Of a stretch of DNA of 30,842 nucleotides, positions 3,125 to 30,154 are shown piece by piece. Source of the DNA: a virus. Numbering within the stretch: position 1 is the first letter of the stretch; every line of letters begins with the position of its first letter. Location of the stretch: positions 1 through 30,842 of IMG/VR virus record IMGVR_UViG_3300035702_000111; one strand, given 5' to 3'. The position numbers and the translations under genes are program-made. The notes under the pieces were generated by a model, which saw nothing but the letters and a program-made list of their open reading frames with translations, did no database searches and was not told the DNA's origin.

Positions 3125-3450
3125 GTAAGTCATTATTTAACTGGGCGGTTACTAATCAATACGGCACGGATTATCCATACAGCAGCCGCAAGTCCGATAT
3201 AGCACGGTGGGTTCTACGGTGGGTCTATGCAGAGCGTTACCACTATTACGTTCAAGCCAATGCAACACAGAGGTATCGGGATCGTATATGGGGCCTGGAA
3301 AGTGACAACGATATGTTTAAGCGTCGGTTAGATTCGATGTATAAGATCTGCGCTGAAATGGACGGAACAGGGAAATCGTATACGTATGAACGGTTGATGA
3401 GACAAGTACACGGTACACCTAGCCCTACCGCGAAGGGAGCCTCACTGTGA
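3121..3450 (+). CDS. Hypothetical protein (109 aa) in the packaging operon
   Basis: A 109-residue basic, Tyr- and Arg-rich protein beginning MSKSLFNWAVTNQYGTDYPY. The GAGGAAG ribosome binding site lies inside the end of the preceding gene, and the start overlaps that gene by four bases. Its own TGA (3448-3450) shares one base with the next ATG. No motif is recognised. Its place between the presumed small terminase and the large terminase, with tight coupling on both sides, suggests a packaging or DNA-binding accessory role. This is inferred from context only. Confidence 0.7.
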   Translation: MSKSLFNWAVTNQYGTDYPYSSRKSDIARWVLRWVYAERYHYYVQANATQRYRDRIWGLESDNDMFKRRLDSMYKICAEMDGTGKSYTYERLMRQVHGTPSPTAKGASL

Positions 3451-3614
3451 TGTATCTCTGGCTGTTACATCCTGAGTCACCTGGTGAGCGTGTACTGGTT
3501 GTACGGGGATTCTTTGCCCGACTGGTTCGGCCCAAGCACTTTGCCACCCTGGATGAGGTCGAGGCATACCGCCTCTATTGCGTAGGCCTACGTGCAAGAA
3601 GGGGACACGGATGA
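3450..3614 (+). CDS. Small hypothetical protein (54 aa) coupled to the terminase
   Basis: A 54-residue reading frame beginning MYLWLLHPESPGERVLVVRG and ending RARRGHG. It starts on the last base of the previous stop (TGATG at 3448-3452) and its TGA overlaps the terminase ATG (ATGA at 3611-3614). The full use of the gap and both overlaps make it very likely real. It is strongly basic toward the C-terminus, with a hydrophobic N-terminal half. It may serve as a coupling cistron or a small accessory protein. No family is recognised. Confidence 0.65.
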   Translation: MYLWLLHPESPGERVLVVRGFFARLVRPKHFATLDEVEAYRLYCVGLRARRGHG

Positions 3615-9974: not shown

Positions 9975-11167
9975 TGAGCACATCCAACCCGACCACTGAA
10001 CAGAGCGTCCACGACGACGCTCTGGGCATGTCCGACGAAGCGTTTGCTGATCTGGATCCTTCGGTGTTTGAGCAGGACGTTGAAGAGACGGACCTGACTG
10101 AAGAAGACACCACAGACGTGGACGTCCCTGAAGCCGATAACGCTGATGAGGACGACACGGACCTGGAAGAAGACACGGACGAGGAGGACGCCGATCCGCA
10201 GGATGAGGCGTCCGATTCAGACCCGGAAGACGATGCTGATGCGGAATCAGACGGTGATGAAGACACCGATTCTGAGGACGACAGCGAGTCTGACGAAGAG
10301 GAAGCCTCCGACGAAGACGAAAAGAAAGATGAGTCTAAGGTGGACTTCAAATCGGAATACGAGAAGTTGATGGCTCCGTTCAAGGCCAATGGCCGTGAGA
10401 TGAAAGCCAACAACGCAGAGGAAGCCCGTCGCTTGATGCAGATGGGTGCGAACTACAACAAGAAGATGGCTGCGCTGAAGCCCTCATTGAAGACCGTGAA
10501 ACTCCTCGACAAGCACGGTCTGAATGACGAAGGACGACTCAACCATCTGATCGACCTGACCCGTGGGGATAAAGGGGCGATCCAGAAATTGTTGAAGGAT
10601 GCCAGTGTTGACCCACTGGATCTGAATACAGAAGAAGAAAGTGATTATCGACCAAACACTTACAATGTTGACGACCGTGAGATTGAGTTGGATTCGGTAC
10701 TGGAAAGCCTCCAGGACACACCGACCTACAACCGAACTCTCGATGTGGTCAGTAATAAGTGGGACAACGCAAGTAAGCAGATCATAGCGAATAACCCTCG
10801 TGTACTGGAGGTTCTGAACGACCAGATGGCCAATGGCGTTTATGAACGGGTCAGCACTGAGGTTGAGCGACTGCGAACGTTTGGTCAGTTGAGTGATGTG
10901 TCGGATATCGACGCTTACAAGACGGTCGGTGACCGCATGGCAGAAGAAGGCAAGTTTGCGGATATGGCGCCAAAGCCAACACAAACACCTGAGAAGCCCG
11001 CTGCACGCCGAGCCCCTGCAAAGCGAGAAGATTCGGCTATCAAACAGAAGAAACGGGCGGCCAGTTCCACCCGAACCAAACCCGCTTCCAAACAACCGTC
11101 TGATTTTAACCCACTGGGTATGTCGGATGAGGAGTTTGAGAAGCAGTTCGACTCAAACCTTATGTAA
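9974..11167 (+). CDS. Acidic capsid scaffolding-like protein (N4 gp57-like)
   Basis: A 397-residue protein with an extreme Asp/Glu-rich region (residues about 25-120), a helical middle (120-320), and a basic Ala/Lys/Arg/Pro linker (about 335-375). It stands just upstream of the major capsid gene, the usual place for scaffold. High charge, helix content and position support a scaffold; it is rather long for one. The motif LGMSDEAF (residues 17-24) recurs as LGMSDEEF (381-388) near the C-terminus, so both ends may bind the same partner, perhaps the capsid protein. The start overlaps the previous stop by one base. No protease motif is seen. Confidence 0.65.
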   Translation: MSTSNPTTEQSVHDDALGMSDEAFADLDPSVFEQDVEETDLTEEDTTDVDVPEADNADEDDTDLEEDTDEEDADPQDEASDSDPEDDADAESDGDEDTDSEDDSESDEEEASDEDEKKDESKVDFKSEYEKLMAPFKANGREMKANNAEEARRLMQMGANYNKKMAALKPSLKTVKLLDKHGLNDEGRLNHLIDLTRGDKGAIQKLLKDASVDPLDLNTEEESDYRPNTYNVDDREIELDSVLESLQDTPTYNRTLDVVSNKWDNASKQIIANNPRVLEVLNDQMANGVYERVSTEVERLRTFGQLSDVSDIDAYKTVGDRMAEEGKFADMAPKPTQTPEKPAARRAPAKREDSAIKQKKRAASSTRTKPASKQPSDFNPLGMSDEEFEKQFDSNLM

Positions 11168-11183
11168 TTAAAGCGAGAAGCTT

Positions 11184-12353
11184 ATGTCACAGTCCTATAA
11201 CGATCCAGTCGGCGGTACTCCGTCCAACATCGGTACCCAGATCCGTACCGATAGCTACATCAAGCGCGCACTCATTGAGATGCGTAAAGAGCAATACTTT
11301 GGTCAGTTGGCCAACGTAACCAACTTGCCCAAGCACATGGGTAAGAAGATCAAGAAGTACCACTACCTGCCGCTGCTTGATGACGCGAACATCAATGACC
11401 AGGGTATTGACGCCACCGGTGCCACGATCGCTGACGGTAACCTGTACGGTTCCAGCAAAGACGTAGGCTCCATTCCTGGCAAAATGCCGATCCTGTCTGA
11501 GACAGGTGGTCGTGTTAACCGGGTTGGTTTCAAGCGTAAGGAAATTGAAGGTTCCATCGCCAAGTTCGGTTTCTTCGACGAGTACACCCAGGAATCCCTG
11601 GACTTTGATACCGACGCAGAACTGATGATGCACATTAACCGTGAGATGCTGAACGGCGCCAACGAGATGACTGAAGACCTTCTTCAGGTCGACTTGCTGA
11701 ACGCTGCTGGCGTGGTCAAGTTCGCCGGCGATGCTACTACAGACGCTGAGCTGGATGAGGCTGACGAAGTGACTTACGGCGACCTGTTGCGTCTTCAGAT
11801 CGACCTGGACAACAACCGTACTCCGAAGCACACCAAGGTGCTGACCGGTACGCGTATGGTCGATACCCGCACGATCCCGGCTTGCCGTGTGATGTACGTG
11901 GGTTCTGAATTGCAGCCCCTGCTGGAAGGCATGGTGGATCTGCATGGCGATAAGGCCTTTATCCCGGTCGAGAAGTATGCGGCTGGTGGTAATGTCCTGA
12001 CCGGTGAAGTGGGTACCGTTGCACGGTTCCGCGTCATTGTGGTTCCGGAAATGATGAAGTGGGAAGGCGCCGGTGCGGATGCAACCGCGAACGCCACACA
12101 CTTCAAAACAGGCACCAAGTTTGACGTACTGCCGATGTTGGTCGTGGGTGATTCTTCCTTCTCTACTATTGGTTTCCAGACCGATGGTAAGACCGTGAAG
12201 TTCAATATCACACACAAGAAGCCTGGCACTGAAACTGCCGACCGTACGGATCCGTATGGTGAGACTGGCTTCATGTCCATCAAGTGGTACTACGGCTTTC
12301 TGTTGGAGCGTGGCGAGCGTATTGCTTTGGTGAAAACCACAGCACCGATGTAA
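11184..12353 (+). CDS. Major capsid protein (N4 gp56-like)
   Basis: A 389-residue protein, close to the 401-aa N4 coat protein gp56. The N-terminal third contains [40 protein letters not shown] and [13 protein letters not shown] (residues about 28-85), a pattern I associate with N4-type coat proteins. The later [12 protein letters not shown] and [18 protein letters not shown] segments fit the HK97-type fold. It would form the icosahedral shell on the scaffold. The gene follows the scaffold-like gene by 16 bases and is followed by two strong hairpins, so its transcript may be the most abundant of the operon. Confidence 0.88.
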
Positions 12354-12360
12354 AGAAATT

Positions 12361-12385
12361 CACCCTATGACCTGATCATAGGGTG
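12361..12385 (+). terminator. First hairpin after the capsid gene
   Basis: CACCCTATGA-CCTGA-TCATAGGGTG, a perfect 10-bp stem with a five-base loop, eight bases after the capsid stop. No T-run follows, so by itself it may act as a 3' stabiliser of the capsid mRNA. Confidence 0.6.
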
Positions 12386-12389
12386 ATTG

Positions 12390-12416
12390 GGGAAAGGGGC
12401 TGCAAGCCCCTTTCCC
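12390..12416 (+). terminator. Second hairpin after the capsid gene
   Basis: A 12-bp perfect stem, GGGAAAGGGGCT with AGCCCCTTTCCC, around a GCA loop, followed by ATTTCC. The T-run lies inside the stem. It may cause partial termination, lowering expression of the genes downstream of the capsid gene. Confidence 0.65.
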
Positions 12417-12447
12417 ATTTCCACTAAAATATTCCGGAGTACACATA

Positions 12448-12996
12448 ATGAGCGAAGATAACCAGAACCAAGAGATGGAAGCAGTCGAGCTTGAAAACCT
12501 GAAAGCCCGGGCAGGCCAACTCAATATCAAATACCGTAAAGACACCACCGCAGAAACCCTGCGTAAGAAAATCGCAGACGAGCTGGCTGATAAAGAATCC
12601 AGTAACGACGTAGCGCCGGCAAAGGAAACCGATACTGCCAAACGCGTGCGTAAGCAGAAAGAAGCCAGTGAGCTGGTTCGTATTCAAGTGACCTGCATGA
12701 ATCCCAACAAAGCGGAGTATGACGGTGAGGTCATTACCGCTGGCAACAAGGTTGTAGGAACGTTCCGTAAGTTTGTGAAGTTCGGTGTGGAATACCATGT
12801 CCCTCGCATTATCTACAACGTCCTACGTGATCGTAAATGCCAGGTGTTTGTGACCGAACGGGATGACCGTGGTCGTCAGCTCCGTCGCGGCAAGCTGATC
12901 AACGAATTCAACATTGCGGTGTTGGAGCCTCTGACGAAAGAGGAGCTGAAAGACCTGGCTCAGCGTCAAGCCATGGCGAAAGGCCAAGCGGCTTAA
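12448..12996 (+). CDS. HeH/SAP-like domain virion protein (N4 gp55-like position)
   Basis: A 182-residue protein. Residues 10-48 (VELENLKARAGQLNIKYRKD then TTAETLRKKIADEL) look like a helix-extension-helix (HeH/LEM/SAP) fold, a small domain that often binds nucleic acid or proteins in phage genomes. A Lys/Glu linker (50-75) precedes a beta-rich C-terminal domain (75-165) with VQVTCMN-like and VGTFRKFVKFGVEYHVPRII segments. It follows the capsid gene as N4 gene 55 does. A GGAG site lies nine bases before the ATG. It is probably a minor head protein; the exact role is not known. Confidence 0.6.
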   Translation: MSEDNQNQEMEAVELENLKARAGQLNIKYRKDTTAETLRKKIADELADKESSNDVAPAKETDTAKRVRKQKEASELVRIQVTCMNPNKAEYDGEVITAGNKVVGTFRKFVKFGVEYHVPRIIYNVLRDRKCQVFVTERDDRGRQLRRGKLINEFNIAVLEPLTKEELKDLAQRQAMAKGQAA

Positions 12997-13021
12997 TTCA
13001 CTAGATCATTGAGGTAGACCC

Positions 13022-13729
13022 ATGGCAGTAATTGCAGTTTCAGACCTGACCGTAGGCGAAGGTACCTTAACCGGGACCGGTGCCTTTGATGTGCTGATGA
13101 CCGCTGTAGAGAAGCACGTAGAGGCCGAGTACAAGAAAGGTCGTATCAAAGGTGGTGATTACGCCTCGGTCTACCTCGGTGCCATGCAGTCGGTCATGGA
13201 TCGTTCGTTGCAGATGCTTCTCCAGCAGCAGCGGGCAGATCAGGAAGCAGAGCTACTGCGTGAACAGATTCTGACGGAGCAGCTTAAACAGACCCAACTG
13301 ACCGCTCAAACCGTACAGATCGAGCAGCAGACTGCGAACGCCATTACGGAGAACACGGTTCTGGTGGCTCAGGAGTGCAAACTCCGGGGTGAGTACGACC
13401 TGATCATGGAGCAGAAGCTGAAGACCGTTGCAGAGACTGCGCTACTGGCTCAGAAGAAGGTCACCGAACAGGCACAAACCTCCGGAACCGGTGTTGGTCC
13501 AGACAGTGTGATTGGTAAACAGACCCAGTTGTACGATGCCCAAAGGCAAGGGTACTTGCGGGACGCTGAACAGAAAGCGGCGAAGCTTCTGGTAGACACC
13601 TGGAACGTCCGTAAGACCATGGATGATACGACCTTGGCTGACGGGAGGAATAACCTGAGCGATGTAAAGGTAGGGGACGCCGTTCGTACGATGCTGCAAG
13701 GCGTAGAGGCCTGGACAGAAACACCGTAA
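13022..13729 (+). CDS. Internal virion protein, N4 gp54-like
   Basis: A 235-residue protein beginning MAVIAVSDLTVGEGTLTGTG. After an N-terminal globular part (1-60), residues 60-190 form long Gln/Glu/Leu/Thr-rich helices. A repeated pattern of TLxQ- and QTVQIEQQTAN-like segments suggests a coiled coil. Related sequences are frequent in podovirus head or tail-tip genes near ejection proteins. Position and length fit N4 gp54. GAGG lies seven bases before the ATG. A strong terminator follows at 13758-13782. Proposed role: structural or ejected protein; not proven. Confidence 0.6.
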   Translation: MAVIAVSDLTVGEGTLTGTGAFDVLMTAVEKHVEAEYKKGRIKGGDYASVYLGAMQSVMDRSLQMLLQQQRADQEAELLREQILTEQLKQTQLTAQTVQIEQQTANAITENTVLVAQECKLRGEYDLIMEQKLKTVAETALLAQKKVTEQAQTSGTGVGPDSVIGKQTQLYDAQRQGYLRDAEQKAAKLLVDTWNVRKTMDDTTLADGRNNLSDVKVGDAVRTMLQGVEAWTETP

Positions 13730-13757
13730 CCAACCGGTTCAACAGGAAAGTAGGAAG

Positions 13758-13782
13758 GAGGGGGCGAATGCCCCCTCTTTTT
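13758..13782 (+). terminator. Rho-independent terminator after the gp54-like gene
   Basis: GAGGGGGC-GAAT-GCCCCCTC, an 8-bp stem with four-base loop, followed by five Ts. It separates the capsid cluster from the ejection-protein cluster. Confidence 0.85.
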
Positions 13783-13804
13783 GTGTACAGAAAGAGGAAT
13801 GTTT

Positions 13805-16060
13805 ATGGGTTGGTTCAGTAGCAAGAAGAAAACCCACGTTAGTACCCAGATATCCCGCGTTGTTGCGGATAATCAGATTCCGGATATGCGTCAGAAGAAC
13901 CTGATTGATTCGGTATTTAAGAACCAGCGTCTGACGCACACCATTGTGAATAATGGGTTGAGTAGCCATGCGTTAAAAGTGGAGCGTGGTTACCGGTACG
14001 CAGCCCGAGGAGATTACGTGTATGGGCCTTCCAACTACAGCATTCTGGATGCGGCCGATGGTAAACAGGCGGTTGAAAACATTATTGAAGCCGAACTGGG
14101 ACAGACCATTCAGTTTGACTACTTTTACTTCACGCCCTTGAACAACCTTCACGCGGGTTGGGAAAAGCTGACTGCCGAGTATGGTTACGACGAGTTCAGT
14201 AACGAAGTCACGGTACTCTCCGCACAACGCGGTAAGAAGACCTGGGTCAAGAATATGGTGGCACACGTCAACACGATCGCCATGCAGTCAGATGTTCCTG
14301 GGGAGCCTGAAATCCTGGCAGACGATGGGACATTGAATGTCTGGGACCGTCACCCACAGGACCGCTACATACCCAACCGGGGAACCGCACCTAAAACGTC
14401 TGTGTGGAAATTCGGTGAGTTGCTAACGGATGGGGTGGAAATTACGTTGGTAGATTCAGCCGGTGTTGAGGACATCTTGTTCTTCGACTTCAGTCAGTAC
14501 GACGACGATCTGGAATGCTTCCACGCCAAGTACCGGTACACAGAGAATGGGAAAAAGAAGACCGGGTATTTTACCTACCAGTACAAGAGCGGAGCGTACC
14601 CCGTACTGGATACGATCCATGATGGAAACCAAGTCACCAACGGGACGTTCCTGCCGGTGGTGCTGTTCCGTCACAACGACGTGAACCGTACCAACCCTTC
14701 CTTGCACGAGACCGAAGAGTACAAAAGCACTGACCAGTTAATGCACTTGATGGGACTGGATTACCAGAAGCTAGGTGACACCATCCATGAGAATCCGGAT
14801 GTAGACAAGCTGGATCAGGCTGCCCTGATGTTTGCTGTACCGGCGAGTACAGCGGATGACGCAGAGAAAGAGTACCTGTTCAAGTTCTTCAACTGGCTCT
14901 ATTTGCAGAGCCCCAACAACCAACAGTACCAAACAGTCGAAGGTGTCTCACACTACCGCCCCGGGCAGGCCATACGCATCAAAGACGCAGACTTCGATTG
15001 CACTTTGAGCTTCGCACAGCTACGGCGCCGCCGGCAGGCGGGGTCGGTCGGTAAGCCCGGGTCGTATCACCAAGAGATTATCCAGGAAACCCGCACACGG
15101 ACGGTCACCCGGAATGTGAGCAACACCCGTGACACTGATTATCAGGAAGTTGAGGAAACCTACACCGTGGATCTCATGCAGTACCGTTTTCAGGTAACGG
15201 CTACGTCATACGACGAGATAATCGTGGACGGGCTCCAACTCCGCTACAACATTTACGATGATAAAAGCGTCACAGTGAACGTCGGCTCCGACAAATTACT
15301 TATCCCCGTGGATTACACCATTGCCCGTACGATGCGGTTTGACCGTAAGGAACGGTTGTACTACCGGTCCATGCACTTTGTTATGAACGCCCGCGTCACT
15401 GAAACGGTGAAGTGGTACGAGAGAGGTATTTTCCAAATCATCCTGTTTGTGGTTGCGGTTGTCATCACCATCCTCTCTCAAGGTACACAGTCATGGACCC
15501 TTGCAGTAGCTGCAGGTACTGAAGCGGTGGTGTTATTAATATTACAGGCCGTCTTGGAGGTACTGATAAGTCAGCTTGTTATATCCAAAGCTTTTGAAAT
15601 AGTGATCAAAGAGCTTGGGTATGAAATAGGGGTAATACTAGCTGTGGTGGCGTTTGTAGTTGCCGGGTATGGCGATTATATAAATGCCGATTGGGCTGCG
15701 TATGCGATCCAGGCTGGTAACAACTTAATGGCTGCTTCCATGACAGATATTCAAAGGGAGGTTGCTGGATACAAAGCGGAATCACAGGAGTTTCAATTAC
15801 AAGCTGAGGAGAAAATGAAGGAGCTGGAAGAGATTGATAACCTATTAAACCAATACGAGTTATTGGATCCACGTTCATTTATTGGGAAGGTGCCTGTTAT
15901 CAATCCCGGGGAATCTCCGGATGCGTTATACGACCGTACTGTGCATGTAGGAAATCCCGGTATTCTGCAATATGACTATATAGAATCGTATGTAGCGATT
16001 AACACGCAACTACCAACTTTTAATGACCTTGTAGGGGATTCTTTTTATGGGCGCATATAA
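13805..16060 (+). CDS. Large virion protein with membrane segments (N4 gp53-like)
   Basis: A 751-residue protein. The start is set at ATG 13805, with AGAGGA six bases upstream; earlier Mets overlap the terminator or the ribosome binding site. The N-terminal 400 residues are soluble and rich in beta strands. Around residues 400-445 is a basic Arg/Thr segment (LRRRRQAGSVGKPG, then ETRTRTVTRNV). From about 538 to 626 come three hydrophobic stretches: IFQIILFVVAVVITILS, a long Ala/Val/Leu segment, and IGVILAVVAFVVAGYG. A coiled coil follows (about 650-690). Membrane segments in a late virion protein fit an ejected protein that builds a channel in the host envelope. It overlaps the next gene by 14 bases. 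Confidence 0.65.
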   Translation: MGWFSSKKKTHVSTQISRVVADNQIPDMRQKNLIDSVFKNQRLTHTIVNNGLSSHALKVERGYRYAARGDYVYGPSNYSILDAADGKQAVENIIEAELGQTIQFDYFYFTPLNNLHAGWEKLTAEYGYDEFSNEVTVLSAQRGKKTWVKNMVAHVNTIAMQSDVPGEPEILADDGTLNVWDRHPQDRYIPNRGTAPKTSVWKFGELLTDGVEITLVDSAGVEDILFFDFSQYDDDLECFHAKYRYTENGKKKTGYFTYQYKSGAYPVLDTIHDGNQVTNGTFLPVVLFRHNDVNRTNPSLHETEEYKSTDQLMHLMGLDYQKLGDTIHENPDVDKLDQAALMFAVPASTADDAEKEYLFKFFNWLYLQSPNNQQYQTVEGVSHYRPGQAIRIKDADFDCTLSFAQLRRRRQAGSVGKPGSYHQEIIQETRTRTVTRNVSNTRDTDYQEVEETYTVDLMQYRFQVTATSYDEIIVDGLQLRYNIYDDKSVTVNVGSDKLLIPVDYTIARTMRFDRKERLYYRSMHFVMNARVTETVKWYERGIFQIILFVVAVVITILSQGTQSWTLAVAAGTEAVVLLILQAVLEVLISQLVISKAFEIVIKELGYEIGVILAVVAFVVAGYGDYINADWAAYAIQAGNNLMAASMTDIQREVAGYKAESQEFQLQAEEKMKELEEIDNLLNQYELLDPRSFIGKVPVINPGESPDALYDRTVHVGNPGILQYDYIESYVAINTQLPTFNDLVGDSFYGRI

Positions 16061-16580
16061 CTTGAATTTTAATACCCCAGGGCCTGCAATGATGCCACGT
16101 CGTATTGCAGCTACCCCGGGTAACACGCCCCTGAACTTGGACTTTATGTCTCAGTTAAATGCAGGCGGTACTAACACACCCAGTTCTTTTTTGAACTTAG
16201 GTACAACATCATCTGTTACCGATCAGGTAATGCAAAACAGTCAATCCCTTATCCCAGGTACAACTTCTAATTTGCCTATGAATGCCGCTGGAGGTGGAGG
16301 TGAAACGGGCATGTTTGACGGCTTCCTGGGTGAAGATGGCTGGGGCAACCTGGCACTGGGTGCAGCTAACGCTGCGATCCAAGGGTACACAGGGTTCAAG
16401 CAACTGGATCTGGTAAAGGATCAACTGGATTTCCAGAAGAAGGCCTTTGAGAAGAACTACGCCGCCCAGAAACAGAGTACCAACACGCAATTAAGAGATC
16501 GACAGAAGCGACGGTACACCGAGAACCCGGGGCACTATGTCAGCCCGGATGAGTACATGTCTCAAAATGGGGTGAAGTAA
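16047..16580 (+). CDS. Small virion protein (N4 gp52-like, ejected)
   Basis: A 177-residue protein beginning MGAYNLNFNTPGPAMMPRRI. N-terminal 95 residues are Asn/Thr/Gly/Pro-rich and probably flexible. A Gly-rich turn then leads to WGNLALGAANAAIQGYTGFK (residues about 100-119) and a basic, Gln/Lys-rich C-terminus. Mass is about 19 kDa, near the 16.5-kDa N4 gp52 that is packaged with the polymerase. The same low-complexity-plus-Ala/Gly-helix design is seen in T7 gp14-type ejection proteins. It overlaps the upstream gene by 14 bases and is followed after one base by the next gene, so all three are co-translated. Confidence 0.6.
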   Translation: MGAYNLNFNTPGPAMMPRRIAATPGNTPLNLDFMSQLNAGGTNTPSSFLNLGTTSSVTDQVMQNSQSLIPGTTSNLPMNAAGGGGETGMFDGFLGEDGWGNLALGAANAAIQGYTGFKQLDLVKDQLDFQKKAFEKNYAAQKQSTNTQLRDRQKRRYTENPGHYVSPDEYMSQNGVK

Positions 16581-16581
16581 T

Positions 16582-18804
16582 ATGCCGATTACCTGGAGAA
16601 ACGTGAACGCCCCCTCCTTCAACGGGGTCTCGGAATCCCTGGCCCAGGCGGGCCAGTCTTTCACCGGTGCTGTGGATGCGCTACAGCAAACCAAGGACAC
16701 CTTTGAAGACGGCCGCACCGACCGAAACACTCAAGCCTTCATGGATCAGATTGCACAGTACCAGTCTCCGGAGGCCTTGGCAGAAGCGCAACAGTCAGGG
16801 GCGATCCAGAAGCTCAGGGATCAGTACGGCGGTAATGGGTTGATCGAGACATCGAAGACCAACGCAGACGCCATGCGTGGCCGGCTGACGGGTCTACGAC
16901 AGCAGGAGACTGCAGATTACGACTACAACCGAACCTTGAATACACGGGCAGACCAGCCGTTCCTTGAACAGATTGGTTCACAGATGTCAGAAATCCCTAT
17001 GGACATGCCACAGGACCAAGCGGCTGCACGTTTAGAAGCCATTCACGCACAGGCTGTTGAAGGGGGTGCAAGTGAACGCGTACTCACTGTATTCAATGAA
17101 AAGAGACGAGACCTCCTGGAAGGTATTGAGGATGAGAACCGGTCTGATGCAACTCATGCCTATAACCTCGAAAGGCGAGGTTGGGAGAAAGGTAATCAAG
17201 CGTATAAACAGAACCAACGCGCACGCACGATTGCACAGCAACAGCGTGAAGATGCTCAACGCGCCCAGATGGATACTTTGCTGGATCAGGAAGAACAGAT
17301 CGTCAATGACTTCACAACGGGCCTGGATACAACGTCACAAGGTGTGTTGAAGGCAGCCGCTGATATAGACATACCCATTGTGAATGGGCGTCCTGTTTTC
17401 TCCGAAGCCACGCCAGAGCAACTGGCTAAATTACAACAGAATACCCAAGGGATGGGTCGTCTATCGTACAAGGACGCTCAGGCTCAGTACGTGGAAGCTC
17501 TGGACGCTGCAGGCATTAAAGGGGAGGAACGTACCAAACGGATGGCAGGCTTCCAGGCGCGTATGGAGGTACCTACAAACCTGTCTCCAAAACGTGAAGC
17601 AGCTTTGCAATCAACATTGGACGCCGGGAAAAAGGAACACGATACGCAACTTGCGCGACTGAAAGAGGACCGTGCGCGTTTCAATCAAAGTAACGGTTAT
17701 GTGGATCTGGACGGTCGTGACCCGAACACCGTCGTAGCCGACTTGCTCCAAGAGATCAACGATGACACTTTTGCCGAAGAAGGTGAGGATGTCGGGATTG
17801 ACTTGTGGGGTCTGTTGAGTAATAGCAAAGGGAACGCACGCGAGAAGATCACGAAAAGTGCGTCACGGGCAGTGTCTGAAGGTATGCCTATAACACTGGA
17901 AGACGGAAGCACCTCCAGCGTTCGTGCAACAGAAGGGATGCTTAGGCAGGCCTTTGTGGCGGCTAAGAGAGCAGAGAATCCGGCAAAAGTATTTGACTCG
18001 GTTCTCCGTGACATACTCAGTCGTCCGGGTAACATTGCACAATGGGAAAGTAACCAGAATTCGATTGAGCGCTTCCGTCAGCAAGAAGACAAGCTGAATT
18101 CGGACTATTTAAGATCTGTTGCTTTTCACAAGAATCTGGCAAATTACGAAGACGGGATCCCTACGGTGGATCTGCCTGCGTTTAAGGCAAGGCTCGATCG
18201 TGCCCTGAAACCGGATATGACGGAAAAAGAAGTAAAGACCACGATGAAAGAGGCCGCTGAATCCATTACAGGCAAGGGGAACGCAAGCCCAAAAAATTCT
18301 GAGCCTGGTACACAGTCAGCAGATGATGCAACGACTGCTAGAATAAACGAACTGGAAGCCGCATTAACCAAAGCTCAAAAGATGGTAGCAGATGGAAATA
18401 AGTCTGGATCAGAATCAGCAGGCCGCAATATAGGAGAGTTACTTAAAGGTCTAGCTACGGCCACTGATCCCACTGACCCAAATAACATTATCCGGGAAGG
18501 TTACTCTAATATAGCAGATTGGACAGGGGCTGCATTACGAAGCACGGGAGATAAGATCCCGTTTTCATATAAAAGAGATGAGAACGGTAAAATAGTAGAT
18601 ACTAACTCAGTCAGCGAGGTTTTAGATGCTAAGTCAACTGAGCTTGTGTACGAAGACGTACCCAACATGATTCAAAGCCTAATGGACGCTGGTGTTTACG
18701 GCGCTAAAGGAACTATGCAACGTATCCAAAATTACTTAAAAAGGTCTGAGGCTAATAATAAAGACTTCGAACGTGGTTTAATGGAGGCTATGAAAGGCAA
18801 ATAA
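16582..18804 (+). CDS. Large internal virion protein (N4 gp51-like)
   Basis: A 740-residue, highly charged helical protein beginning MPITWRNVNAPSFNGVSESL. Opening residues resemble other podovirus internal proteins, with an Asn/Ser/Phe-rich head followed by helix. Most of residues 40-330 and 460-590 are Glu/Gln/Lys/Ala-rich helix and likely coiled coil. No lytic transglycosylase motif is visible. It lies directly upstream of the giant polymerase, as gp51 does in N4, and starts one base after the previous stop. Likely role: internal core or ejection protein that helps package or inject the polymerase. The last 170 codons are more AT-rich than the rest. Confidence 0.62.
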   Translation: MPITWRNVNAPSFNGVSESLAQAGQSFTGAVDALQQTKDTFEDGRTDRNTQAFMDQIAQYQSPEALAEAQQSGAIQKLRDQYGGNGLIETSKTNADAMRGRLTGLRQQETADYDYNRTLNTRADQPFLEQIGSQMSEIPMDMPQDQAAARLEAIHAQAVEGGASERVLTVFNEKRRDLLEGIEDENRSDATHAYNLERRGWEKGNQAYKQNQRARTIAQQQREDAQRAQMDTLLDQEEQIVNDFTTGLDTTSQGVLKAAADIDIPIVNGRPVFSEATPEQLAKLQQNTQGMGRLSYKDAQAQYVEALDAAGIKGEERTKRMAGFQARMEVPTNLSPKREAALQSTLDAGKKEHDTQLARLKEDRARFNQSNGYVDLDGRDPNTVVADLLQEINDDTFAEEGEDVGIDLWGLLSNSKGNAREKITKSASRAVSEGMPITLEDGSTSSVRATEGMLRQAFVAAKRAENPAKVFDSVLRDILSRPGNIAQWESNQNSIERFRQQEDKLNSDYLRSVAFHKNLANYEDGIPTVDLPAFKARLDRALKPDMTEKEVKTTMKEAAESITGKGNASPKNSEPGTQSADDATTARINELEAALTKAQKMVADGNKSGSESAGRNIGELLKGLATATDPTDPNNIIREGYSNIADWTGAALRSTGDKIPFSYKRDENGKIVDTNSVSEVLDAKSTELVYEDVPNMIQSLMDAGVYGAKGTMQRIQNYLKRSEANNKDFERGLMEAMKGK

Positions 18805-21800: not shown

Positions 21801-24800
21801 TTTCTCCAGAAGTGTCGGAAGAGAGCGATGGGCTGGCTATTGAAGAAGTGGCTAAAGCCCCTGGTTTACTGTCTGCGATGCAATTTGAAGGTGATCGTCC
21901 TGTCGCGGATCAGAGTAACTTCAAGTCAGTCAATCTGGCTCAGGCGTATTACATACAAAGTGCCGGTAAAGAAGAGGGCGGCGGTACACGTCCGTTGGTG
22001 GATTATGACCGCTTCCTGACCGCTGTACGGGCAAAGATTGAAGTGGCAAACGACTATTTCAATACCCCTAAAGACCAGGATGAGGAAGTCACCTCTGCCC
22101 AAAAACGGGCGTTAGAGACGTTTGCGGAGAAGGCTGCCAAGTGGATGCCTACCCTTGACAAGATCATGCGTGACTACGACAAGCTCCCTGCAGACGCATC
22201 GTGGCACTGGGATGTGATCCAGTACTTCAGGGATCCTGAGACCGGTCAACTACCGGAGAATATGAAAGGGGCCATTGCGTATGCGGCCTGGACCTTTCTG
22301 GTGGAGTCGGAAGCTGCCAGCCCGATCATGTCCGACGATGACATTCGGACCATTATAGGGCTGGACGACCACGAGCAAGTACCGCCTGCTGCTAAACAGG
22401 CATTACAGTTTGCAGGTACACGCGCCAACATGATGGTCAACAATGTGGGGCCACGTGCCCGTAAGGTCTTGGGTATAAAAGCGGTAGCGTCGGCACCGTT
22501 GGATGCAGAGCCTAAGCTGGATGCAGCACTGGGCAGTTACGCTCAAGGCTTGTTGCTCGAACTGGGTCTCATTGAAAGACCAAAAATTGAATACGAGGGG
22601 TTTGATCAGGACACCTCGTTTGTCCGCATCAAGCGGGAAGATAATAAAGCCCGGGACGCTATCCCTGAGATTGCAGAGATCGGTCGTGTGAGCCGGGGTA
22701 CCCAGAACTACCTGGATAAGTTGATGGGCAGTGAGGCCGTGGTTCAGGAGCCTGTGTTCGAGACACCCTACTTCACACAGAAAACCACCAAGGGTACAGA
22801 CTCACGCATTCCTGAGAACATGGCTGATATGCAACAGATCAACACATCCCGGGGCTGGAAGGTTCGGCCTTGGATGAACGGTCTGTGGCAAGCACTGACG
22901 GATGAAACCCAAGAAGCGGCGGCAGGTGTTGTAGACACTGAAGGTGAGCACCGCCTGATCCAGAGTAGCCTGGAAGGCAGTAACGCCGGGTTGATCCGTG
23001 AGATCAAACAGTTCCGGGATTTCCTGGATACCGGTGTTCGCGGGAACTACGAGAAAAAGTTCTTCCTGCACCCGTCCGTATGGGTCATGCAACGCGCCGG
23101 CTACAAGAACACCATCAACCCGCAGAACAGCAAGGTTCAGCGTGAGTTGATCGGTATGGCCGATTGGTCTGTGCGTATCCCTACGGACTTCCGAGACCCT
23201 TTGAACAAGTTGTTCCGTCAGAATGTGGCCATGGGTCTGGGTATCAAAGCCGATAAGCTGAAGCAAACAGAAACCATCAAACAGCTTAATAGTAAGTTAA
23301 AGCACCCTAAGATCCGTACCGGTTTGGAAGCCATCAAAAAACAAGTCAGAGAGGAAGAACTGACGGAAGGTGACCAGGCGAATATCCGAGATGCAGTGGC
23401 CAAAGGCGGTGAGGGTATGCAATCCCTGAGTGCCTTGCTTTCTTATGCTCGGATGGAAATGGCGCGGGAACCTAAAAACAAGGCCGTTGATTTTGATACC
23501 GACATGGACATGATGGAAGTGGACGGTGTCACCAACGGGCCTATGTTGACGTTGCTGATGTTAGGTGCAGCCCAGTCCACCAACGGGTTGTTTACGTTCC
23601 TGAATAAAGGTGGGATGTACCAAGCAGGTTCTCCTTACAAGAACTTTGTGGATTATAAGAAGCAGGGCAATACCGACCTGTACGAAACGGCGATCGGTGA
23701 GACGGTTAGGGCCATTGAAACAGGCTTACAAAAGAAGCCACAACGCCGGCCTGCTTTTGAAGCGGTTGAGTATTTCAAGGGCGGTGTGGGGAGTATCTTT
23801 GATACTGCAACCAATGCGATTGGACGTGCTGCCCGTAACGTCATTAAGACACCGTTGACCGGGATGATGTTTGGTCAGTCTTTGAACGCTGGGGTGTCCT
23901 CCATGTTTGAAGAACTGACTGAGGACATGTACCGCAAAGTCTCACGGATCAACAAAGACAACTACACGACCGCTCAGAAAAAGGAAGAGTTGGCTGAGTG
24001 GGCGGCTGCCGTTAATACGTTGATATCCAATTACAAGCCTGAACGTTCTTTGGAGATTCCGGCAAACCCTACAATGAAGTGGGCCTTGAATTTTGAGTTC
24101 AGTAAAGAGCAAAAAGCGGCGATGCGTCGTTCATTTGCCGGTACGCGTAAGGACAACGCCGGCACCTTCGGTGCGGCTGTAACAGCCGCTATGGAAGACC
24201 AGTTCAGTGTGTTCCTGGAAAATCGTCAGGTGTTGAACCAAGCGGCCCAAGCATCGGCCTTGTTGTACATCGAGGTGCGCGATCACTTAATTGAGCTGCG
24301 GACAGAGGAGAAGATAGCCGCCGGTGATATAGCGACCACCACTAATCAAAAAGGTGAGCGGGTTGTCTTACAGGATCTGAATGCCTTGGATATGCAAGCC
24401 ATTGACGAACAGTTGGCTCCCATGGCGCCTGTGGCACACAGTGCGTTGTCTAGCGAAGTAAACGACCTAGGTGCTGGTATTTACCTGCCTAAGACTAAAC
24501 CGAAGCTGGATTTTGCAAACACCACGTACCGGCAGAATATTAAATACTCTAAGGACGTGGGTGGATCCAAGGGGATCAGTGCAACGGCCTTTAAAAAGGT
24601 CATTGATAGCCCAGGTGTCCGCTCGTTAATCATGATGATTCACTCATCGGATGCGGCTATTTCAGCCAAGGCGTATTCGCAGTTGGCTGCGTTGAACATT
24701 CACGATGCCAACGGTCTGAGTATTGTGAATCTGGTGGCCGGGGCACGTAACCTTAACGAAGCCACATATAACGTGATGTTGAACTACTCGATTCCACTGG

Positions 24801-27800
24801 AACTGAAAAACACACTGGATCGTACGCTTGTCGGTGTCCACGGTATGTTGGACATGGTGAAAGATTCTCCTGCGATACAGGCGAAGCTCAAGACCGTGAT
24901 CGAAGGTGAGTTTGAAACGGTGTACCCCAAGAACGGGAAACCGTATGAAAAGCAGCTCTCCGGTATCCGGCTGTCTAAAAAACAACGTAAAGCTGCAGAG
25001 TTCCTGGGGACGGATCCTCTGACGTACTTGCTGTCGGAAGTCTATAAGACTGCGTACACCAGTGAGTACCGCAAGCTGGATGGTATGGGTCAAATGGTCT
25101 ATCTGGATCAGTACGCTCAGGAGGGCGGGGAGTTTGACGTCACACAGGAACTACGTGACCAAGCCAAGCGCATGAAAGAAGATCTGGAGATTGAAGCCCG
25201 AGGAGGTAAGGATGCAGAGGGGAATCTCCAGTCGGACAAGCTGGTTGTCAAAACAAAACAACAAGCCGAGGAATTGTACGCGGCTGTGGCGGGCCGCCAG
25301 GCCAAGCCACAGACACGCGACACAGAGATAAGCTCAGCCGAATATGGTGCAGCCCTCAAAGCTATTCTGGGTGAGATGGATAAGAAGATCCAAGATCACT
25401 ATACGGAAACGGGCGAGAAAGATTCGGTAGCTCAAAAAGCCCGGAATACCACTGCGACCTTGGCCAAGTATCTGAACCGTGGTTATTCCCTGGATGCCGC
25501 TTTGAAGGGTCTGTTCCCTCAAGAAGATTCAGCGGGTAAAAAGCTGGCCTGGAAACGTCGGTTGGCTGCTCAGGTAGAAGATCGGTCACTTGCGGTGTCC
25601 GATCCACGAGGTGCTCCTCACAGCGTTATTATGAACGTGATGCAGTTCATGACAGACAACGAGATGGACCCGGGTGGTCAGGTTGTCTCTCTTCTGGAGA
25701 CCATGTATCAGGATGGGCTGTATCTGAAATCGGCTATGAAGCAAATATCTCAAGTCGATGCAGCGATTGCCTTTGAACGCATAAAGACCGTGTATAACAG
25801 TCACCGTGCAACGCCTTATGGTGAGCTTGGTTCGGCCGTTGTCGAGGCAGATCAAGACCTGGATACGTTCCTGCGTAGCAAGTCCAATATGACTGCAGGG
25901 GATGTAATGGGTTACCTGAAAAAGCGATATGCCAATCCAAAGACCAATCAGGCACGGTTCTACCGTCTGATCCTGGGTCAGGTAAGCAGGACTGTTCCAG
26001 TGGATCTGCCAGTACGTTATATCACGCGGGAGAACGTGGATTTCCCTGCTCCGGAACGCAACGTCACATCGGCACGGGGTTGGTATGAGCCGGCTGCGGA
26101 TAACGAGCACATCGGTATCAAGAGCCCGGACTTTATCCATTCGGCTGTACAGCCAGAAGTCCTGTTGCACGAGCTGGTTCACCGTGCCCTGGCAGGGATT
26201 ACCCACAAAGCACAGTCTCTGCCTAAGAAAGCCCCGGAAGCTAAGTTGGTGGCGGATCTGGAAAGTCTACGTGAAGCGTCGATCCAGTGGCTTGATAGCC
26301 AAGGTGACGCTGGTTTGAAAGCTCGACACAGCGAAGCCCTGGTCAACGTACACGAGTTTCTGGCGTGGGGCTTGACCAACGCACGCTTCCAGACCGAAGT
26401 ACTGTCACAGGTCACAGTAGAGGCCACACAGCGTCGTAATGGATTCATAACGGCCATGAAGCGGTTCATCAATGTGGCGACTGAACTGTTGCTGGGTAAG
26501 ACCGTACGTTGGCAAGAGCAAGGGAAAACCATGACCACTGCAATGGCTGAGTTGTTGAGCCGTTCGGGTGGGTTGTATGCCGCTGCCCGTAAAGGTGGTG
26601 AGACGTACTATAAAGGGGAAGCCTTGCGTAGCCAACAGAGTGATGGGTCAACACCGGTAGAGCAGTACAGCACAACTCAGATCTTCGATGGTTTGGCCAA
26701 CATGCAACGGGCACCGTTGGATGCCGACTACGAGGCTGAGTTGCGGGGTGTATTGACCTCATTGGTGTCGAAGCTCCACGGACCCTATGGCACCAATAAA
26801 GAACTGGTGCGTGAGCGAGCCAATTACAGTACGGCGGATGTGTTCACCGAAGCCTTGATGGGCAACATGCCCTTTATGTCTGAGGTACTGGGTAAGCCCC
26901 TGGCGATCTCCGAACAAGAAGCCTTTGTTATTGAGCAGGTCGAAGCCACTACCCGGGCGTCCTTGAACGCGTCTACGATGGCGTACCGAGAATTGAACAA
27001 GTTGTACCGTGAGACTCGGGAACGTCTGAGTGCCCGGGATTTTGTAGAAGGTGATTGGGCTACTGCGTCCGCTGCGGAGAAGCAAGCTGCACAAGAGAAC
27101 TTCGAGTTTATATTCCGTCCGGAAAAGACCGAAGGCGGTACGTCGAACCATCTGAGCAAGTTCGCGGCCATGGCCATTGCGTACAAACCCTTACGGGATC
27201 TGATGGATCAACAGACTGCACCGTACGCACGGACAGGCCGTGTAATGTCCCTAGCGGGTATTGCACGGGCGGTGTTCGACACCCTGATGAATGTGTTGAC
27301 GGGTAAGTTGACCAAGACCTTTGAAGGTCAGAAGGCTAATGAGAAGCTGGATCGCTTGGTGGATCAGTTGGTTAGCGTTGAGGCAAAGCGTCAGGCGTCA
27401 CTGGCACGTAGGCGGGTGAACGGACCTAATATGATGACGGCTGCCGTTCACAAAGCCAATGAGTCTATCCGTGCAGGGGCCAGTAAAGCCGCCCATTCAT
27501 CGGTGGTTAAAAACAGTCGAAGCGGGTTTGTACGGGCAGCCGGTGTCACCGTACGGGTGGTTGCCGGTGACCGGGTAGAAGAAGTGTTCAGCGGTATCCA
27601 GAAGCTGCGTAACAAGCTGCACAGCGATAAAGAAGGTGTGGTTGCCAGTTGGGTGACGGAGATCCGCGGTGCAAACGACACCAACAAAGAAGCCTACGAG
27701 TTTGCTCGGATGGTGAATAAAAACGAACAATACCGTCTGTTGACGAAAAACCGGACAATCCACGATGTACTGGGATCGTTCGACGAAGACGGGAAGTACC

Positions 27801-30154
27801 TGACCGAAGAGGACACCGTTGCACTGACACGGACGGTCCTGCGGCCCGACCTGTCTGCTTTGGCTAAAGAGCATGATATGGAGGAACTGGTTGGAATGGT
27901 CCGTGATGAAGGTCAACGGGAACGGATGATTGCGGATTATGAACGTCAGTTGTTGAAGCTGGATCGAGGCCGTGCCACCTACTGGATCACACAGGGTCGG
28001 GATCTGGGGTGGACAATGGTGACAGGTGCTGTGACCAGTGTTAACCACATGAACAACGCGCATAACATTATTCAAGAGTTTGGTACCCCGAACGCTAACA
28101 GTGTGGCGGCAACGGTGGCAGAGCAGGCGATACCCCTACTGGATCGACTGACGTCCTTGTATGCCCTACGGAATACCCCGAAAAAGGATCGGGATACTGC
28201 CGGAGAGGTAATGACCCGGGAGTCTCGTCGGGGTGATGCCAGCGGTGTCAGCATGATCGTTAAGTTGCACCAGAAGCTAAAAGACGATGCGTTGGATCAA
28301 CTGTTCCAGGGTAACCCCACACACTTCAACAAGGGGTACACCAAGGAAATTTACAACCCGTATAAAGAGGTGGTCATTGCCAGTGGTATTGAGGGAACCA
28401 ATCTGGAACGTATGGGAGCACGTCGGAGTGAGCCGCTGAGATCCGATCCACAGGATCCCACACGAGGCGAGGTTAAGCGTATCTATACGATTGACGACGG
28501 TGGGTTGAAGCAGTGGGTGACCGGGACGTTCTCTTTTACCGGGACACGGCCAAAAGGGACACGCATCCACAGCGGGATTACCCGTGCGGATAACGGTGGG
28601 TTTGTTCATCTGCAGAACAAACAAATGACGCAGGACGTACAGGCGGATAAGGCTATGGAAGTGGTTGGCTTGTATTCCCGAGGTTTGGGGTATGACCCAG
28701 CCAAGTCCAATAAAGAATACATGGCACCCTTGTTGAGTAGTCAGGGTGATGTGGCCGACTACCGGTACCTGATGCACACCAAAACGCGGGATACCTTGCT
28801 TGAGCGGGATAACCGTATGGAGGAGATCCTGGGAGCCATGGCCGCTAACGTGGTTGACCGGGTGAATACCCGCGAGACAAACGGCCTGTTGGTACAAGCC
28901 TTGTACGACCAGTACCAAGCTGAAAAAGCAGAACAGCCGCAAGGCTTTATCGAAGTCAGCGAGAACAGTACAGACCCTGAGATACGGGAGACTTACCGTC
29001 TGCTGCCGGACGATACGAAAAAAGCCATTGTAGCTACCTGGGGACGTCCGGTCATGATGGTCCGTAAGGATCTGTTCATGATGCACTTTGGGTATCGGAA
29101 GAAGAGTATTGCGGATCCTTTCAGTAAAGCACCGCGGTCTGAGCGCAAGGACAATCCAGATGCCCGTGGGATCGCAGAAGAGGTGTTTGTTGTTGTGGCT
29201 GAAGCTTTACTGGGTAAGAAGGCTGCCCTGCGTCTGCGTCGTGCAGAGGATGTCTGGCAGGAGCTGGTTCGGATGATCAAAGACTTCCTGGTCATCAAGA
29301 ACATGTTCACGTTGATTGGTAACATCCTATCCAACATCTCTGAGCTGGTATTGGCCGGTGTTCCGATGAAAGACATTTTGAAAAATCAGCGTATTGCAGT
29401 GGAAGGGTTGATGGCGTACGAGAAGGATTTCAGGAAGGTAGAGACGTTGAAAATGATGCGCGATATCAACCATCTGGATCGGCCACTGGCTGCGATTGAG
29501 GATGAGATAGCTTTACTGGAAGACGCCTTGGCACGCAACCCCGTTCGGGAGTTGGTAGACGCTGGCTTGTTGCAGACCATTGTGGAGGATGTTGAGGTAT
29601 TGGACGACCAGTTTTCCTATAAGTCCAAACTGACTCGTGCACTGGACAGCAAAACACAATGGCTACCCAAGGCGATTAAAGACGCGGGTAAGTTTGCGGT
29701 TATGAGTCACGACACCGATTTGTACAAACTGTTATACAAAACCACGCACATGAGTGACTTTGTGGCGCGGTACACGTTGTACGAACACGCGATAAATCGG
29801 GATGTGAATCCGCTGTCCAAAGAGGATGCGATACAGTTTGTGGAAGAGGCGTTCGTTAACTACGACACGCCTACACACAAGCTGGTGCAGTACCTGAATG
29901 ATATGGGAATCATCCCCTTCACCAAGTACTACATCCGTATCCAGAAGATACTGTTCCGGTTGTACCGGGAGAACCCGGCACGGGCCTTGATGATGGTGTT
30001 GTTCAGTAACACCCTGGAAATGGTACCGACCATTGTCGAGTCGGGTTTCTGGAACAAGCTGAACGGCAACATGATAAAAGGCGGTGCGTTTGAATTTGGG
30101 GACGCGTTAACAGAAGCGTTGCCTATTAACACAGCCTTGCAATTCACGAGGTAA
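18878..30154 (+). CDS. Giant virion RNA polymerase (N4 gp50-like) with zincin motif
   Basis: A 3758-aa (about 410 kDa) virion RNA polymerase; N4 gp50 is about 3500 aa. Residues 1-1000: helical, with Gly-rich hydrophobic stretches (GGVIGGAVGGTISGAG, about 406-421), a Pro/Thr/Lys linker (about 811-866) and a small beta-rich module (about 868-935). Residues about 1000-2090: T7-type single-subunit polymerase. Motif A is EVDGVTNGPM (Asp1549; N4 has EADGVTNGPI). Motif B is RNVIKTPLTGMMFG (Arg1653, Lys1657, Phe1665). Motif C is LNIHDANG (Asp1943). The A-C spacing of 394 matches 392 in N4. The T/DxxGR region reads QRAGY (1405-1409). Then HELVH (His2431-His2435), a metallopeptidase motif, with HEF at 2492-2494. 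The C-terminal 1200 residues are helical and should serve packaging. Weak ribosome binding site behind a hairpin. Confidence 0.95.
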   Translation: MSEFNLDPYFAAQDEGVELQEDPISKWETLNFNTTTKQAELSQKAEEKRRALHALTRQVDQEKAAFDKSWVGQADLDPDSVAGGAVNLAASFTTGTGRIAGELVTLPSDTYSAAQNFLLPTGVREAYSRIQQGTATPEDHALMDQSNIGETASAEPKDPSGPTWGSRIEKMQDARHWAEEVSETFDLYGNVEMSNRQELSRKLAEGSANGLSALRDAAKAYDDNDLSGMLSDGVYGIASLLVNAGPALLENPGAVAEYTVEMAPQIASAMVSRGLVTPQIAGYAAKTYRDGVLKYQEENGGALPSKDKNMEMATHAVSLFVAEKLGLESIGRTGKLFNKGSKSKPTPKKNAVDTPPKAKKEAKGVVGIAGSSARGFAGESGTETWQTYAEGVAGYDPRSAEQIYEGGVIGGAVGGTISGAGKTVSEIDRAVKGTDKAKADTEAEIVDMKAATESGDISAYTDKKSPKYDLNRAAAVLKARQENGDTKAVDEINKVYRRAEKDVAVMENTARVYTPEGKAENERKLAEQTQALNEATDPAEKSKLQKAIQTTKMFIDANGDKKGKKDTDATLARAKETFKNVSKVQEEVTAETVAPKDSEEDLATLKTKANLTEGLDTEVSSEERQAAVQKLTTQTMSSPSILSSTEADTLVNDTTNGLNDSQREYLREFSRAQESLQGVSGTNSDIFKGRDSYRGIPTYRNLIQSAMKDKDTEAVQGYMGDLQRFARDHQSKANAVEAAFNQWQTTKQPQSVVRGKTAGTWAVSKEPMSKSAVTANGGLTIDGMSSNLVQAIKAESKALNAAGIEMTAMSKMTAPTRKPASQKGTSNESTPPKTPEAKTPADNVAETPTQKPVTDPAPDEAGTESVTTYDGWAKANAGKRIAIQYPKSKTPFTVTVSEETEVVTEGNEGQRVAFTGVTSKGKKVTFTEADVTNYMGSTEIEPGSLSNIRGESGQQPQAAESAPLTPNEPVSEDVVSPEVSEESDGLAIEEVAKAPGLLSAMQFEGDRPVADQSNFKSVNLAQAYYIQSAGKEEGGGTRPLVDYDRFLTAVRAKIEVANDYFNTPKDQDEEVTSAQKRALETFAEKAAKWMPTLDKIMRDYDKLPADASWHWDVIQYFRDPETGQLPENMKGAIAYAAWTFLVESEAASPIMSDDDIRTIIGLDDHEQVPPAAKQALQFAGTRANMMVNNVGPRARKVLGIKAVASAPLDAEPKLDAALGSYAQGLLLELGLIERPKIEYEGFDQDTSFVRIKREDNKARDAIPEIAEIGRVSRGTQNYLDKLMGSEAVVQEPVFETPYFTQKTTKGTDSRIPENMADMQQINTSRGWKVRPWMNGLWQALTDETQEAAAGVVDTEGEHRLIQSSLEGSNAGLIREIKQFRDFLDTGVRGNYEKKFFLHPSVWVMQRAGYKNTINPQNSKVQRELIGMADWSVRIPTDFRDPLNKLFRQNVAMGLGIKADKLKQTETIKQLNSKLKHPKIRTGLEAIKKQVREEELTEGDQANIRDAVAKGGEGMQSLSALLSYARMEMAREPKNKAVDFDTDMDMMEVDGVTNGPMLTLLMLGAAQSTNGLFTFLNKGGMYQAGSPYKNFVDYKKQGNTDLYETAIGETVRAIETGLQKKPQRRPAFEAVEYFKGGVGSIFDTATNAIGRAARNVIKTPLTGMMFGQSLNAGVSSMFEELTEDMYRKVSRINKDNYTTAQKKEELAEWAAAVNTLISNYKPERSLEIPANPTMKWALNFEFSKEQKAAMRRSFAGTRKDNAGTFGAAVTAAMEDQFSVFLENRQVLNQAAQASALLYIEVRDHLIELRTEEKIAAGDIATTTNQKGERVVLQDLNALDMQAIDEQLAPMAPVAHSALSSEVNDLGAGIYLPKTKPKLDFANTTYRQNIKYSKDVGGSKGISATAFKKVIDSPGVRSLIMMIHSSDAAISAKAYSQLAALNIHDANGLSIVNLVAGARNLNEATYNVMLNYSIPLELKNTLDRTLVGVHGMLDMVKDSPAIQAKLKTVIEGEFETVYPKNGKPYEKQLSGIRLSKKQRKAAEFLGTDPLTYLLSEVYKTAYTSEYRKLDGMGQMVYLDQYAQEGGEFDVTQELRDQAKRMKEDLEIEARGGKDAEGNLQSDKLVVKTKQQAEELYAAVAGRQAKPQTRDTEISSAEYGAALKAILGEMDKKIQDHYTETGEKDSVAQKARNTTATLAKYLNRGYSLDAALKGLFPQEDSAGKKLAWKRRLAAQVEDRSLAVSDPRGAPHSVIMNVMQFMTDNEMDPGGQVVSLLETMYQDGLYLKSAMKQISQVDAAIAFERIKTVYNSHRATPYGELGSAVVEADQDLDTFLRSKSNMTAGDVMGYLKKRYANPKTNQARFYRLILGQVSRTVPVDLPVRYITRENVDFPAPERNVTSARGWYEPAADNEHIGIKSPDFIHSAVQPEVLLHELVHRALAGITHKAQSLPKKAPEAKLVADLESLREASIQWLDSQGDAGLKARHSEALVNVHEFLAWGLTNARFQTEVLSQVTVEATQRRNGFITAMKRFINVATELLLGKTVRWQEQGKTMTTAMAELLSRSGGLYAAARKGGETYYKGEALRSQQSDGSTPVEQYSTTQIFDGLANMQRAPLDADYEAELRGVLTSLVSKLHGPYGTNKELVRERANYSTADVFTEALMGNMPFMSEVLGKPLAISEQEAFVIEQVEATTRASLNASTMAYRELNKLYRETRERLSARDFVEGDWATASAAEKQAAQENFEFIFRPEKTEGGTSNHLSKFAAMAIAYKPLRDLMDQQTAPYARTGRVMSLAGIARAVFDTLMNVLTGKLTKTFEGQKANEKLDRLVDQLVSVEAKRQASLARRRVNGPNMMTAAVHKANESIRAGASKAAHSSVVKNSRSGFVRAAGVTVRVVAGDRVEEVFSGIQKLRNKLHSDKEGVVASWVTEIRGANDTNKEAYEFARMVNKNEQYRLLTKNRTIHDVLGSFDEDGKYLTEEDTVALTRTVLRPDLSALAKEHDMEELVGMVRDEGQRERMIADYERQLLKLDRGRATYWITQGRDLGWTMVTGAVTSVNHMNNAHNIIQEFGTPNANSVAATVAEQAIPLLDRLTSLYALRNTPKKDRDTAGEVMTRESRRGDASGVSMIVKLHQKLKDDALDQLFQGNPTHFNKGYTKEIYNPYKEVVIASGIEGTNLERMGARRSEPLRSDPQDPTRGEVKRIYTIDDGGLKQWVTGTFSFTGTRPKGTRIHSGITRADNGGFVHLQNKQMTQDVQADKAMEVVGLYSRGLGYDPAKSNKEYMAPLLSSQGDVADYRYLMHTKTRDTLLERDNRMEEILGAMAANVVDRVNTRETNGLLVQALYDQYQAEKAEQPQGFIEVSENSTDPEIRETYRLLPDDTKKAIVATWGRPVMMVRKDLFMMHFGYRKKSIADPFSKAPRSERKDNPDARGIAEEVFVVVAEALLGKKAALRLRRAEDVWQELVRMIKDFLVIKNMFTLIGNILSNISELVLAGVPMKDILKNQRIAVEGLMAYEKDFRKVETLKMMRDINHLDRPLAAIEDEIALLEDALARNPVRELVDAGLLQTIVEDVEVLDDQFSYKSKLTRALDSKTQWLPKAIKDAGKFAVMSHDTDLYKLLYKTTHMSDFVARYTLYEHAINRDVNPLSKEDAIQFVEEAFVNYDTPTHKLVQYLNDMGIIPFTKYYIRIQKILFRLYRENPARALMMVLFSNTLEMVPTIVESGFWNKLNGNMIKGGAFEFGDALTEALPINTALQFTR

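Follow-up and report, generated by a model that had tools for sequence, protein, structure and literature searches.

For about 50 years, work on the virion RNA polymerase (vRNAP) of phage N4, gp50, has treated it as a polymerase, and what its large C-terminal region does in early transcription has been described as unknown (PMC12633501). In this region, Iyer et al. reported in 2017 a zincin (MPTase domain) covering N4 residues 2130-2448, stated that one or more such zincin domains occur per vRNAP and proposed for them both the cleavage of host proteins and self-cleavage (PMC5512222). Furthermore, Bellis et al. solved the N4 vRNAP in 2025 (PDB 9PNR/9PNT), delimited C1 as residues 2124-2375, a domain which they describe only by its conserved HExxH motif, and gave to the C-terminal region a role in the autoinhibition of transcription (PMC12633501). 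In the available text of these two papers, neither a metal, nor a cleavage, nor a substrate of C1 is shown (Iyer et al., PMC5512222; Bellis et al., PMC12633501).

The stretch of DNA analysed here (the window, 30,842 bases) is the entire record IMGVR_UViG_3300035702_000111 and is probably a fragment of a phage genome; related phages have about 70-79 kb. Its upstream part carries major head and portal genes, followed by two smaller genes and a giant reading frame in the N4 gp52-gp51-gp50 order, with weak sequence support for both small genes (Table 1). The giant frame matches the PHROG profile phrog_2206, "virion RNA polymerase", over residues 62-3753 (E=0) and was also aligned to N4 gp50. In an alignment of 18 vRNAPs, R1406, D1549, K1657 and D1943 of the window protein are invariant and align with N4 R1421, D1556, K1667 and D1948, which we take to be the catalytic residues (N4 mini-vRNAP numbering). 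Judging from its sequence, this frame is an N4-type vRNAP and, by analogy with N4, a large multidomain chain would be delivered into the host. Of the relatives found, uncultured viruses are the nearest, with about 50% identity in C2 and in RNAP, and the nearest cultured ones are Pseudomonas Schitoviridae, with about 30-37% identity over the compared stretches. The C2 region of the window protein corresponds to N4 C2 as delimited by Bellis et al. (PMC12633501).

Table 1. Features of the window bearing on the virion RNA polymerase and its C1 domain
Feature	Residues	Nucleotides	Strand	Basis
177-aa gene, in the place of N4 gp52 (small ejection protein)		16047..16580	+	position only; phrog_2646, function unknown
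740-aa gene, in the place of N4 gp51 (ejection protein)		16582..18804	+	position; weak match to phrog_6126, virion structural protein
Giant virion RNA polymerase, N4 gp50 type	3,758 aa	18878..30154	+	single unbroken frame
RNA polymerase (RNAP) region	~1000-2090 (approximate boundaries)	21875..25147	+	alignment with N4 gp50
C1, zincin-like metallopeptidase domain	2336-2578	25883..26611	+	AlphaFold2 model, VIA-align, profile matches
GWYEPA	2401-2406	26078-26095	+	translation
HIGI	2411-2414	26108-26119	+	translation
HELVH; predicted zinc ligands H2431 and H2435, predicted general base E2432 (analogy with zincins)	2431-2435	26168..26182	+	conservation
HEFLAWGL, second active-site helix (Glu2493 codon 26354-26356)	2492-2499	26351..26374	+	conservation, model
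C2, helical C-terminal region	2593-3758	26654..30151	+	BLAST alignment with relatives resumes from window residues 2585-2597

Downstream of the polymerase region, the same chain carries a domain which, as judged from sequence profiles and a predicted structure, is a zincin-like metallopeptidase, the C1 of an N4-type vRNAP. A sequence-only reading had proposed at this place a zincin of the kind found in phage polyvalent proteins, and profile matches, AlphaFold2 and VIA-align all agree with it; the domain belongs to a kind already described, and both mechanisms that were proposed with it, i.e. host-protein cleavage and self-cleavage, are already published. The motifs on which this reading relied, GWYEPA, HIGI, HELVH and HEFLAWGL, lie exactly at the residues that it had given, and the interval that it had delimited (25960-26420) falls inside the domain, the confident model being wider.

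The AlphaFold2 model of C1 (77 sequences; pLDDT 90.8, pTM 0.89) is confident over the residues listed in Table 1 and has a core made of a helix (22-35, model numbering), three strands (43-47, 66-69 and 76-80) and two active-site helices, with HELVH in helix 91-112 and E2493 in helix 156-165. This predicted fold places the helices bearing HExxH and the Glu as in zincins and has the features of the zincins of phage polyvalent proteins, namely an HExxH helix, a later Glu helix and a helix/three-strand/two-helix core. VIA-align ranked anthrax lethal factor (4dv8) first (Z 8.3, 155 residues, 4.2 Å) and also aligned the N4 vRNAP (9pnt; Z 7.6, 175 residues, chain 2134-2348); Z values are moderate (7.5-8.3) and both proteins are neighbours expected from the literature, anthrax lethal factor being also an HHpred match of Iyer et al. 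(PMC5512222). Foldseek alone found no PDB match with E≤0.001 for this model. A profile search had been suggested along with the sequence-only reading. Against PDB sequences, the C1 profile matched an internal virion protein of 1,337 aa (9sfn, E=2.6e-33), the N4 vRNAP (2.5e-13), the PhiM1 ejection protein gp48 (8vb2, 2.5e-6) and a gp10 (23sg, 0.004). In Pfam scans, no zincin family scored above threshold with the window protein, and for this reason the classification of C1 relies on profile, structure and literature. SprT-like membership (PF10263) was considered and rejected: the window protein has no match, and 19 of 77 members match weakly below threshold (best E 0.0018). Peptidase family M34, that of anthrax lethal factor, is a structural neighbour only, with no Pfam assignment above cut-off. 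For the motif, Bellis et al. name radical SAM-associated HExxH enzymes as well as zincins (PMC12633501), and C1 might accordingly be a non-peptidase HExxH enzyme, for instance a relative of the radical SAM-fused alphaKG-HExxH domains; this is highly improbable, the Pfam scan of the whole chain having found no radical SAM domain and the best structural neighbour outside N4 being the peptidase domain of anthrax lethal factor.

Scrutiny of the active site region was based on an alignment of 12 diverse homologues, comprising the window protein, ten Schitoviridae-type vRNAPs including that of N4, and gp37 of phage LUZ19. The only invariant columns are H2431, E2432, H2435 and E2493. The third zinc ligand had been expected in HEFLAWGL, and this location is retained, but the residue is probably Glu2493, giving a site of the HExxH...E (gluzincin) type, because it is invariant while His2492, kept in only 38% of a wider homologue set, is too poorly conserved and is ruled out. 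Similarly, HIGI is present in the motif context as had been stated, but its His is not conserved, the commonest residue in the H2411 column being Ala (22%), which rules out this strand His as an extra active-site residue such as occurs in another zincin clade of Iyer et al. By likeness to zincins, H2431, H2435 and E2493 would hold zinc, E2432 would activate water and the domain would be an active peptidase. Near-invariant columns amount to 5.9 per 100 residues in C1 versus 3.2 in RNAP and 2.4 in C2, in a set partly biased by its retrieval through a pattern that includes E2493-G2498. The C1 active site and the polymerase's own site appear to be conserved with about equal strictness.

These columns bear on the possibility that C1 has a structural role, perhaps in a zinc-bound form, in packaging, in refolding after ejection or in polymerase autoinhibition, without catalysis. 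Such a role would fit the reported need for the C1-containing region in N4 vRNAP encapsidation (PMC5512222), as well as the D2012-R2279 salt bridge by which N4 C1 touches RNAP and the repression of transcription by the C-terminal region (PMC12633501). A purely structural role is nevertheless disfavoured, and quite unlikely, because Glu2432, whose role in zincins is that of the general base rather than of a metal ligand, is conserved just as strictly as the ligands are.

Since the first set of loci had been fetched by a pattern containing the Glu, and cannot test that residue, the loci were fetched again by RNAP or C2 sequence. This survey yielded 101 unique vRNAPs, 85 of which extend far enough to be judged. 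An HExxH is found at the C1 position in 82 of these 85, and all 82 have a Glu 45-100 residues past it (81 by pattern, and L318 by eye). N4 gp50 and its relatives thus share the motif. As composition predicts only about 0.6 HExxH by chance for the 450-residue stretch concerned, summed over about 64 relatives, and as the selection was blind to C1, the HExxH of the window and its relatives is, on these counts, more than chance. The survey drew on a single public set of viral contigs and on conserved-residue patterns, by which divergent vRNAPs are under-sampled; a scan of viral contigs with one sequence alone came up empty, and alignment-based searches were needed. In bacterial genomes, relatives occur at only two loci, both in metagenome-assembled genomes. 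Two further loci deserve mention. In L098 (IMGVR_UViG_3300028209_000015, nt 10180-16800), the frame of the vRNAP is interrupted around the polymerase motif and the C1 motif lies downstream in another frame, which may be a sequencing error or a real break. In Vibrio phage phi 1 (L011), tandem HExxH domains follow the polymerase, at frame residues 678 and 913, with C1 profile matches of 2e-26 and 3e-10.

The same module is also encountered outside polymerases. Indeed, LUZ19 gp37 (L012 3753-7766), the large ejection protein of phiKMV-type phages, in which no Pfam domain was found, has the same zincin with HExxH...E kept. Besides the N4 vRNAP, the three solved ejection or virion proteins matched by the C1 profile (9sfn, 8vb2 and 23sg) hold this module with HExxH and the downstream Glu. 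Furthermore, a 3,322-aa reading frame starting at nt 2 of L088 (IMGVR_UViG_2710723518_000002) encodes a polyvalent protein with InPase, methyltransferase, ART-PolyVal and LPD38 domains and a zincin of the same clade; outside the zincin, it has no similarity to virion RNA polymerase. A review of ejection proteins makes no mention of protease, peptidase or zinc (PMC8954989). The occurrence of the module in proteins that are not polymerases also speaks against the structural role considered above.

C1 is cleanly missing in 3 of the 85 vRNAPs: homology with relatives ends at 2231 and restarts at 2269 in L144 (L121 has about 300 residues in that gap), ends at 2461 and restarts at 2486 in L162, and ends at about 2123 and restarts at 2142-2149 in L332. 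All three carry an HExxH domain upstream of RNAP, past the N-terminal region (HELGH at 1014 in L144, HEVVH at 1131 in L162 and HELSH at 891 in L332). The upstream domains of L162 and L332 match the C1 profile (E=4e-14); that of L144 does not, its model is poor (pLDDT 52.9) and its HELGH is followed three residues on by an Asp (HELGHVKD), as in a different zincin clade that Iyer et al. describe (PMC5512222). The swap is therefore less certain in L144 than in the two clearly homologous cases. Among full-length chains, an upstream copy is found in 3/3 without C1 versus 3/66 with C1 (Fisher p=4e-4, a guide only, the test being post hoc and treating related sequences as independent), and chance would give about 0.5 upstream HExxH over 68 chains. 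On the C2 tree, the three C1-less cases require at least 3 changes on well supported branches, those of L332 and L156 being long, and by this tree the three losses lie on separate branches. HExxH domains on both sides of the polymerase occur in L151, L156, L170 and also L298, whose 5' end is open. In the same tree, L170 adjoins L166, which has C1 only, and is near L162, which has the upstream copy only; L170 is plausibly an intermediate state between these two architectures.

The loss of C1 in three lineages with an HExxH domain elsewhere in the chain again argues against a purely structural role, and relocation argues for selection on activity rather than on architecture. It suggests, tentatively and at somewhat less than even odds, that an active metallopeptidase is nearly obligatory in N4-type vRNAPs yet free in position, C1-less lineages carrying a copy on the N-terminal side that in one case perhaps derives from another zincin clade. 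The presence of C1 in nearly all the vRNAPs judged, and of an upstream HExxH domain in the three that lack it, are results of the survey that are possibly new; no description of this swap was found in the available text of Iyer et al. 2017 (PMC5512222) or Bellis et al. 2025 (PMC12633501).

Both zincin positions flank RNAP beside variable linkers, an arrangement that would suit self-processing, in which the zincin, inside the head or once entry has taken place, would cleave a linker of the chain that carries it and free the polymerase or other parts. Such processing was proposed for polyvalent-protein zincins from DdrB of phage P1, a protein cut before it is packaged (PMC5512222). However, the N4 vRNAP is reported to be packaged unprocessed in virions (PMC5512222), the recombinant full-length protein showed no degradation on purification (PMC12633501), and neither of the two linkers flanking C1 contains a near-invariant column to mark a conserved cutting site. 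Furthermore, the comparative data do not require self-cleavage, because the same module is borne by ejection proteins devoid of polymerase. The release of the polymerase by self-cleavage, one of the two mechanisms put forward by the sequence-only reading, thus finds no support in the N4 literature and is unlikely.

We favour instead, with a probability of roughly 60%, an active peptidase that is packaged and ejected with the vRNAP and acts in trans. Action in trans is preferred because ejection proteins and a polyvalent protein, all polymerase-free, bear the module, because vRNAPs retain a peptidase-like domain whichever side of the polymerase it occupies, and because the N4 chain is packaged and purified whole, with no near-invariant column in the linkers flanking C1. 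As in N4, the chain would be packaged, ejected through the tail and refolded in the host, where the peptidase, during or soon after entry, would cleave a target belonging either to the host's proteins or to the ejection channel. It is probably the activity of the peptidase as such that counts in infection. If an obligatory peptidase free in position does exist in these proteins, selection would bear on the injected activity, the target would be common to polymerase-free ejection proteins, and an unrecognised step in podophage genome entry would be at play.

The zincins of the phiKMV-type ejection protein (LUZ19 gp37; PDB 9sfn) and of PhiM1 gp48 (PDB 8vb2) are homologous to the C1 domain of the window protein by profile and keep HExxH and the Glu, but, unlike the window protein, these chains are without RNA polymerase. 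T7 gp16, the protein analogous to the phiKMV-type large ejection protein, was rejected as a carrier, having a stray HERLH and no profile match. The peptidase domain of anthrax lethal factor (4dv8), the best structural neighbour of the window C1, has 11% identity with it, and likeness in substrate or function is not implied. The closest counterpart is the N4 C1, which belongs to the same family and shares its place downstream of RNAP, HELVH, the conserved Glu and the fold region, with H2228, E2229, H2232 and E2310 as the counterparts of the window HELVH and Glu. While the two proteins have this site in common, identity over the aligned domain is about 23%, the stretch from HELVH to the Glu spans 58 residues in the window and 78 in N4, and the chains have 3,758 and 3,500 residues, respectively.
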